DNA of 42,914 bases from Candidatus Jorgensenbacteria bacterium (lineage in GTDB: Bacteria; Patescibacteriota; Minisyncoccia; UBA6257; GWB1-50-10): assembly GCA_011050075.1 (NCBI GenBank), contig DRGK01000004.1:1-42914 (forward strand), given 5' to 3'. Below are positions 22,825-25,330 of this stretch, in pieces. Position numbers and translations under genes: made by a program. The notes beneath the pieces were generated by a model. That model had not been told where the DNA came from and did not search any database. It worked only from the letters and a program-made list of their open reading frames with translations. The first letter of the stretch is position 1; every line of letters begins with the position of its first letter.

Positions 22825-22855
22825 AAACCCCTCCGCACTTTTTCGGAGGGGTTTT
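22825..22855 (+). terminator. Rho-independent terminator
   Basis: AAACCCCTCCG-cacttttt-CGGAGGGGTTTT. Confidence 0.85.
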
Positions 22856-22930: not shown

Positions 22931-23003
22931 GCCCACGTAGCTCAGTTGGCAGAGCGATACTCCCGTAAAGTATAGGCCGTCGGTTCGATCCCGACCGTGG
23001 GCT
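22931..23003 (+). tRNA. tRNA-Thr (anticodon CGU), CCA not encoded
   Basis: GCCCACG/CGTGGGC acceptor, GCTC..GAGC D-arm, ATACT-CCCGTAA-AGTAT anticodon arm, GTCGG-TTCGATC-CCGAC T-arm; G1-C72 and C2-G71 fit Thr identity. Confidence 0.9.
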
Positions 23004-23005
23004 CA

Positions 23006-23716
23006 GTGAATTACAACCCAGACATTATTCATATCTCGGTATACGCCGGTGCTGGCGGCGAGGATGCAAAAGATTTTGCACGGATGCTCTTGCGCATGTA
23101 CCGTAGGTTTGCGGAGAAGAAGAAATGGAAGGTGAGGTATGTGCATGACGATACAATAGAAGTCCGCGGAAAAGGCACATATGACCGTCTTCGAGAAGAA
23201 GCAGGCGTGCACCGATTGGTGCGTATTTCCCCTTTTGATGCAAAGAAGCTTCGCCATACCTCGTTCGCGCTCGTGGAAGTATTGCCGGAACTTCATTATG
23301 TGAAAGCATCACAGGTGCATATTCCTGATAAGGATTTGAAAGTAAGTTTTTTCCGTTCGTCAGGCCCCGGTGGCCAGAATGTTAATAAGGTTGAGACAGC
23401 GGTGCGTGTAGTACATATACCGACCGGCATGAGTGCTTCTTCTCAAGTGGAACGTTCGCAGGCGGGGAATCGGGAACACGCCATGAGTTTACTAAAAGCT
23501 AAGTTAGTAAAGCTCATGGAAGAAAAGCGCGAAGAAGATCTAGGTAAATTGCGCGTGAAGGTGACACCTGAGTGGGGACATGAGATTCGTTCATATGTGC
23601 TTCATCCATATAAAATGCTTCGCGATGAGCGGCTGGGAATTAAAATAACAAAGGTAGAGGATGTACTCAATGGGGATTTGGACTTATTGATTACAAAATC
23701 TAAGAAGGTACAATAA
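23006..23716 (+). CDS. prfB: Peptide chain release factor 2-like protein lacking the N-terminal domain 1
   Basis: SPF anticodon-like motif (VRISPFD), GGQ motif (SSGPGGQNVN), prfB-ftsE-ftsX order; GTG start at 23006 preferred over 22997, which lies inside the tRNA. Confidence 0.85.
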   Translation: MNYNPDIIHISVYAGAGGEDAKDFARMLLRMYRRFAEKKKWKVRYVHDDTIEVRGKGTYDRLREEAGVHRLVRISPFDAKKLRHTSFALVEVLPELHYVKASQVHIPDKDLKVSFFRSSGPGGQNVNKVETAVRVVHIPTGMSASSQVERSQAGNREHAMSLLKAKLVKLMEEKREEDLGKLRVKVTPEWGHEIRSYVLHPYKMLRDERLGIKITKVEDVLNGDLDLLITKSKKVQ

Positions 23717-23729
23717 GGTAAGTGCTCAT

Positions 23730-24419
23730 ATGATAGTTTTTAAGAACGTCAGTAAAATCTACCACCAGAATGGCCGTGAATCGATAGCCCTGGATAAAGT
23801 TACGTTTAAAATTCAGCCGAATGAGTTCGTGTCTGTTGTAGGTCGTTCCGGTGCTGGTAAGTCCACTATTATTCGCTTACTGACCGGAGAAGAGAAGCCC
23901 TCAAAAGGGCAAGTTTTTTTTGGATCGTACGAGGTGGATAAGTTGAAGTCTAGTGAGTTACCGGAGTTTCGCCGCAATATCGGTGTCGTGTTTCAAGACT
24001 TCCGTCTACTTGAGAAAAAAACAGCATTTGAAAATGTTTCATTTGTACTTGAAGTGGAAGGAGTTCCGCAGCAAGAAATTAATGAAATTGTTCCTCAGGT
24101 ACTCAATTTAGTGGGTTTAAAAGATAAGATGTTTAGACTGCCGGCAGAACTCTCCGGTGGTGAACGGCAACGTGTGGCAATTGCCCGAGCAATGATTAAC
24201 CGACCGGAGGTTATTATCGCTGATGAGCCGACTGGAAATCTCGACCCGCTTAATAAGTGGGAAGTCATCAAGCTCCTGACCAAGATTAATGAGCTGGGCA
24301 GCACTATACTATTGGCCACACATGATAAAGAAATTATAAATTCACTGGGGCAGCGTGTCATAACCCTCAGTGACGGTCAGGTTATCAAAGACGAAGCGAG
24401 CGGTAAATTTATTGTATAA
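23730..24419 (+). CDS. ftsE: Cell division ATP-binding protein FtsE
   Basis: [49 protein letters not shown]; followed by ftsX. Confidence 0.95.
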
Positions 24420-24424
24420 ATACC

Positions 24425-25330
24425 ATGATTACGATTTGGCGCATTATTAAATACGGATTTCAGAATTTGTTGCGTAACAAGTGGCTGTCGATTTCGACAG
24501 TGAGTATTATGATATTAACCCTCGTGGTGTTTGAGGGCGTGGTGCTCTTTAATGTGTTTTCCACGAACGCGATTGAGGCGGTTAAGGATAAGGTTGATAT
24601 CAGCGTCTACTTTAGAAGTAATGTTGCTGAGGACGATGTACTGAACGTGAAGCAAATTTTAGAGAGCTTTGATGAAGTAAAGGAAGTTGAGTATGTCTCC
24701 CGTGATGAGGCGCTGAAGCGCTTCAAGGAGAACCATGCTGGAGATGAGGTTATTACGCAAACTTTGGAGGAGCTTGATAGTAATCCTCTCTTAGCATCAC
24801 TGAATGTACGAGCGCTGGAGTTGAGTCAATACGACGCAATTGCTTCATATTTGAGCTCAGCATCTCTTAATGGAATGGTGGAAAAAGTTACGTATGCTCA
24901 GAACGAACTAGTTATTAAGCGCCTTGAATCAATTGTTGGTGGTTTAAATACTGCTATTTTAGTGCTGACGTTATTCTTAGCATTCTTATCGGTTATGGTG
25001 ACATTTAACACGATTAGCTTAGCGATATTTTCTAATAAGGAGCAGATAGCGATTATGCGTATCATTGGTGCTGATAATAAGTTTATTAGGGGTCCGTACA
25101 TTATTGAGGGCTTTATGTACGGAGTTGTCGGTGCGGTGATTAGTATAATGCTGTACATCCCTATAGTAAGTGCCGCTACGCCGGCGCTGGCTAATTTTGT
25201 GCCGTCGTTTAGTTTAGAAGAATACTTTAACAACAACATCGGATATCTACTGATGTATCAACTCTTTGTCGGTGCCGGTCTTGGTGTGCTCTCAAGCGTC
25301 GTTGCAATACGTCGCTATCTGAAATCTTAA
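24425..25330 (+). CDS. ftsX: Cell division permease FtsX
   Basis: Adjacent to ftsE; NLLRNKWLSISTVSIMILTLVVFEGVV; ISVYFRSNVAEDDV. Confidence 0.94.
   Translation: MITIWRIIKYGFQNLLRNKWLSISTVSIMILTLVVFEGVVLFNVFSTNAIEAVKDKVDISVYFRSNVAEDDVLNVKQILESFDEVKEVEYVSRDEALKRFKENHAGDEVITQTLEELDSNPLLASLNVRALELSQYDAIASYLSSASLNGMVEKVTYAQNELVIKRLESIVGGLNTAILVLTLFLAFLSVMVTFNTISLAIFSNKEQIAIMRIIGADNKFIRGPYIIEGFMYGVVGAVISIMLYIPIVSAATPALANFVPSFSLEEYFNNNIGYLLMYQLFVGAGLGVLSSVVAIRRYLKS

Follow-up and report, generated by a model that had tools for sequence, protein, structure and literature searches.

A release factor 2 lacking domain 1 behind tRNA-Thr in Candidatus Jorgensenbacteria, and the apparent parallel loss of this domain from release factors of Paceibacteria

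Results

Organization of the prfB locus

The window, a stretch of 42,914 nucleotides from a Candidatus Jorgensenbacteria genome (contig DRGK01000004.1), contains a gene for release factor 2 (RF2), the four-domain protein that terminates translation when the stop codon is UGA or UAA. This gene, prfB, stands between a tRNA-Thr gene and the ftsE and ftsX genes, the latter two identified by Pfam, and the prfB-ftsEX order given in a preliminary description of this DNA is thus as stated (Table 1). ARAGORN extends the tRNA over 22931-23004 and the Rfam tRNA model over 22931-23003; the acceptor stem ends at 23002 and is followed by the discriminator T, the dinucleotide CA and the GTG start codon. A further in-frame GTG lies upstream at 22997, inside the tRNA; the choice of the later start is backed by relatives, as the ATG of one of them (L009, MNYNPNIITISVLAGAGG) aligns with the GTG of the window gene, (M)NYNPDIIHISVYAGAGG. 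The reading frame is, as first described, closed by a TAG at 22973-22975 within the tRNA.

Table 1. Features at the tRNA-Thr-prfB-ftsEX locus (window coordinates)
Feature	Coordinates	Strand	Basis or remark
Terminator-like hairpin, CCCCTCCG-CACTTTTT-CGGAGGGG-TTTT	22828..22855	+	End of upstream unit; read from sequence
tRNA-Thr(CGU), discriminator T at 23003, then CA	22931..23003	+	ARAGORN; Rfam RF00005, 64.2 bits; tail analysis
Spacer CA, 2 nt, tRNA discriminator to start codon	23004..23005	+	
prfB, RF2 without domain 1, 236 aa	23006..23716	+	GTG start; SPF and GGQ intact; shortened D2 hairpin loop
ftsE, ABC transporter ATPase	23730..24419	+	Pfam PF00005
ftsX	24425..25330	+	Pfam PF18075, PF02687

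The terminator previously placed near 22825 is borne out in part: a hairpin with four T residues can be read there, but it is absent from the list of the terminator scanner, which needs at least five. A promoter scan of the tRNA-prfB junction gave one weak match, near the point where the upstream ORF stops. Right after the hairpin there is a second copy of GCCCACGTA, the sequence with which the tRNA begins (its first nine bases, 22931-22939), about 72 nt upstream of the tRNA copy.

The tRNA had also been described as lacking an encoded CCA. The CCA is indeed incomplete, but CA is present after the discriminator, as it is behind most tRNAs of this genome. All 26 of its tRNA genes (L065-L090) have a C after the discriminator, followed mostly by A or T (N-CA or N-CT), and two of the 26 encode CCA. 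A CCA-adding enzyme was not found in the draft genome and is present in 40 of the 43 genomes of the family.

The encoded RF2 lacks domain 1

In the window RF2 the Pfam RF-1 domain is complete, and the PCRF domain is matched only at profile positions 102-194 of 194, its domain 2 (D2) part. The prfB model TIGR00020 is matched at positions 120-350 of 353 with 283.1 bits, below its full-length cut-off of 370 bits, and we therefore class the protein as an RF2 variant without domain 1 (D1) rather than as a canonical full-length member. Both matches begin past D1, and a PCRF search of the genome for a separately encoded D1 hit RF1 and RF2 alone, each in its D2 part, in agreement with the original claim. 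The genome, a draft MAG of 526 kb in 18 contigs and about 91% complete, has exactly two genes with an RF-1 domain: the window RF2 and an RF1 on contig C13, which begins MTQKIILEIRAGTGGDEAALF and is also without D1. A search for a second or full-length RF2, proposed in the preliminary description as a check, found none in this genome, where the window gene is the only prfB.

The two functional motifs are intact, as first noted. SPF (residues 75-77) lies in RISPFDA, which is invariant in the RF2 alignment, and GGQ (residues 122-124) lies in SGPGGQNVNK, of which GPGGQNVNK is invariant. The structure prediction that had been suggested gave an AlphaFold2 model with a mean pLDDT of 80.8, which matches ribosome-bound RF2 with a TM score of 0.81-0.82 over the query length and contains the core D2/D4 and D3 fold; because the alignment behind the model is shallow, we attach no meaning to its open conformation. 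Compared with canonical RF2 (TIGR00020; Escherichia coli, Thermus), the window protein is alike in this fold, in its motifs and in its gene order, with about 40-45% identity over the core. It differs in the absence of D1, in a shorter D2 hairpin and in the absence of the programmed +1 frameshift, there being no D1 region to carry a CUUUGA.

The tRNA-Thr-prfB junction

The adjacency of tRNA-Thr and prfB, whose conservation in relatives had been proposed as a check, is conserved in the family. At 22 of 31 family loci a same-strand tRNA-Thr(CGU) precedes prfB, within 25 nt at 11 and within 5 nt at seven. The spacing ranges from 2 to 1124 nt; away from the tight loci it is 44 nt or more, or another ORF intervenes. 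The same order also occurs beside full-length RF2 (L041, L042, L044, L063 and L064), which indicates that it is older than the loss of D1; together with the variable spacing, this argues that adjacency was neither required for nor caused by that loss.

The preliminary description had proposed that RNase Z-type cleavage at the tRNA 3' end generates a nearly leaderless message and so couples tRNA maturation to RF2 expression. In this form of tRNA punctuation, maturation of tRNA-Thr would cut a shared transcript, and RF2 supply would track maturation in place of frameshift control. Several observations are compatible with it: the 2-nt gap in the window, the similarly short distances (2-22 nt) seen in ten relatives, the rarity of Shine-Dalgarno (SD) motifs in the genome, the shared A of CCA and AUG in three relatives (L011, L028 and L032, with T-CCATG) and, as a hint, the ORFs inserted between tRNA-Thr and prfB, which begin 1-15 nt past the tRNA (L009, L006, L012 and L020). 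A comparable arrangement exists in animal mitochondria, where mRNAs with little or no leader lie directly behind tRNAs and the junctions are cleaved by RNase P and RNase Z. However, no RNase Z exceeded its cut-off in any of the 43 family genomes; the weak partial matches fall in frames of about 450-650 aa, the size of RNase J/beta-CASP proteins. Adjacency is missing or distant in many relatives, and in those with overlapping CCA and AUG the start codon would not survive cleavage at the CCA end.

Equally tight spacing is also found elsewhere in this genome. Among same-strand neighbours in the window, 14 of 25 gaps are at most 15 nt, and behind five other tRNAs of the genome an ORF begins no more than 25 nt away; clear Pfam families were assigned to four of these ORFs (amino-acid kinase, NlpC/P60, nucleotidyltransferase and ParA-type ATPase). 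The preliminary description was right that prfB lacks an SD motif, but this is nothing unusual here, as only 4 of 38 ORFs are preceded by an SD-like motif, which is near the background of 7% at random positions. Tight spacing and a missing SD are thus ordinary in this genome and, given the old synteny, we read the junction as a compacted old gene order. Special tRNA-RF2 coupling finds no footing in these data, and we consider tRNA punctuation unlikely.

In a stricter version, with the frameshift gone, the RF2 message would have tRNA-Thr(CGU) as its 5' end, so that each transcript could give either mature tRNA or message, the two being mutually exclusive in relatives whose CCA overlaps AUG. If true, it would be an RNase Z-free tRNA punctuation in a bacterium and a replacement control of a release factor. 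In L011, L028 and L032, CCA-end maturation and RF2 translation would compete for one transcript; we find this version more doubtful still. At two further loci, L024 (about 1385-1490) and L027 (about 1346-1400), the opening codons of prfB are also present as a decayed extra copy directly behind tRNA-Thr, with the real prfB next. This copy is apparently what remains of a tRNA and prfB that once abutted, and of a small duplication.

The window gene as a probable general release factor

The D1-less architecture is shared with RFH (PrfH), which naturally lacks D1, and so the window gene could be a rescue factor of the RFH or ArfB kind. This is very unlikely. The protein scores 283 bits with TIGR00020 but 77.5 bits with the RFH model TIGR03072 (cut-off 166.65) and 53.8 bits with that of ArfB (cut-off 100), and it has a D2, unlike ArfB, which consists of the GGQ domain only. 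RFH is an extra factor beside RF1 and RF2 and is paired with an rtcB-like gene, whereas the window protein, with its normal SPF motif, is the sole RF2 of a genome that uses UGA, and its neighbours are tRNA-Thr and ftsEX, none of them rtcB-like. PrfH is also the weakest PDB fold match among the matches listed. That D1 is encoded but was lost from the contig by misassembly or a frameshift error, a concern with a draft of 18 contigs, is refuted by the 43-genome survey, in which the D1-less gene recurs in many independent genomes, as well as by the intact, conserved tRNA upstream and the D1-less RF1, and its probability is negligible.

Distribution of domain 1 in RF1 and RF2

None of the 43 family genomes, which represent 25 genera, has an RF2 above the full-length TIGR00020 cut-off; the matches begin near profile positions 105-118. 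Among named relatives, Candidatus Colwellbacteria comes closest in RF2 similarity, and the others are Paceibacteria/Parcubacteria groups. One family genome (G001, L005) has an extra RF2 with half of D1 that groups with Nomurabacteria-type sequences, from contamination or transfer. In a phylum-wide draw, RF2 exceeded the cut-off in 346 of 383 genomes, and the low scorers came mostly from the window's own class and order.

Within the order, all combinations occur. RF1 is full and RF2 is D1-less in families f12 and f18; RF1 is D1-less and RF2 is full in f5, f7, f10, f14, f17, f22, f24 and f27; both are D1-less in f1, f3, f15, f16, f19, f21, f23 and f25; both are full in f4 and f13; and D1 is shortened in f6 and f9. 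Elsewhere in the same class, the RF2 of Nomura-, Taylor-, Vogel-, Adler- and Zambryskibacteria, among others, differs from the window RF2 in keeping half of D1, about 60 residues, and CUUUGA is missing in nearly all such half-D1 RF2. On a tree of the RF2 core, built with D1 excluded, no fewer than four changes are required to account for the D1-less state, two of them forced by well-supported branches. These results suggest that RF1 and RF2 lost D1 separately and several times across the order and the Paceibacteria. Such parallel loss in both release factors of one bacterial class, together with that of prfB frameshift control, is a stronger finding than the junction.

The D2 hairpin loop is about 10 aa shorter in all RF2 of the family (window residues 40-60, for example). 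The distance from AGxGG to GVHR is accordingly 55-56 residues, not 65-66, in f1, f3, f16, f19, f21, f23, f25 and f6, but D1-less members of f12, f18 and f9 have 65. Family f6 combines the short loop with a D1 that still carries the frameshift site, so trimming of the loop probably preceded the loss of D1, which would have occurred more than once.

We found no published description of D1-less release factors in CPR bacteria in open-access full text, and the passages that term searches retrieve from a 2019 release-factor review and a 2025 prfB frameshift survey report none.

RF3 and uL11

In vitro, D1 is dispensable for codon recognition and peptide release, and truncated RF1 works in vivo; D1 is required for stimulating nucleotide exchange on RF3 (PMC1586002). 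No RF3 exceeded its cut-off in 60 genomes of the order, whereas uL11 is present in 57 of them, including the genome studied here. D1 is thus without its known partner in this order. Full-length RF2 relatives also lack RF3, so its absence is permissive but not sufficient, and we reject RF3 loss as the full explanation; a missing docking site on uL11 is likewise rejected as the cause, since uL11 is present. Regarding other release-factor genes, the GGQ methyltransferase PrmC exceeds its cut-off, within the 43-genome family, only in the genome studied here (G000:C11:12103-12807, L173), with G013 close; release-factor methylation seems to be missing from most of the family.

Frameshift autoregulation and stop-codon usage

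The programmed +1 frameshift of prfB is common, though not universal. Among relatives with a full-length or partly reduced RF2, seven carry CUUUGA(C) (L040, L042, L043, L044, L047, L056 and L063), 18 to 24 codons into prfB. Because this site lies within the D1 coding region, RF2 autoregulation is gone in the D1-less genes. A survey covering over 12,000 genomes describes loss of the frameshift motif in other phyla and links most of it to high UGA usage (PMC12421855). UGA ends only 9 of 87 mechanical ORFs (about 10%) in the sampled loci, from which both the stop-codon and the tRNA statistics were drawn, and the D1-less case therefore falls off this high-UGA trend. In the window alone, UGA is 1 of 38 stops. 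Avoidance of UGA as the driver of D1 loss was rejected, given the share in the wider sample and the lack of a clear difference between D1 groups.

In another family of the order, f26, UGA is found in frame at conserved Trp positions of RF1 and EF-G in genomes G067, G101 and G085 (L174-L177; in EF-G, for example, D-UGA-MEQERERGITI), and no RF2 was found in these three genomes. UGA appears to be reassigned to Trp in this family of Paceibacteria.

Discussion

We think it probable, with good confidence, that the window gene is the organism's working and sole RF2, reduced by a lineage-wide loss of D1, and that its junction with tRNA-Thr is a compacted old gene order. Given the intact motifs and fold, the SPF loop of D2 would read UGA and UAA and the GGQ loop of D3 would free the peptide, after which RF2 would leave the ribosome without RF3. 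As D1 serves mainly in RF3-linked recycling and the order is without an RF3 gene, D1 could be lost; where RF2 was affected, this would have taken the autoregulatory frameshift along. Compaction would have brought tRNA-Thr(CGU) beside prfB, which is probably expressed from a tRNA-Thr-prfB-ftsEX unit by SD-independent initiation, as are most genes of this genome.

That D1 is dispensable was already known, both through laboratory constructs carrying truncations and through the side paralogue RFH. The lineages described here offer a natural bacterial set in which D1 is complete, halved or missing and in which a cell's sole RF1 and RF2 manage without it. A role of D1 beyond RF3, in uL11 docking, in the change from compact to open form or in recycling, thereby becomes testable by comparison. 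Since the NCBI full-length release-factor models score D1-less genes below cut-off, such genes may be misread as fragments. For these ultrasmall bacteria, the D1-less genes point to a route by which the otherwise widely kept frameshift control of prfB can be lost.
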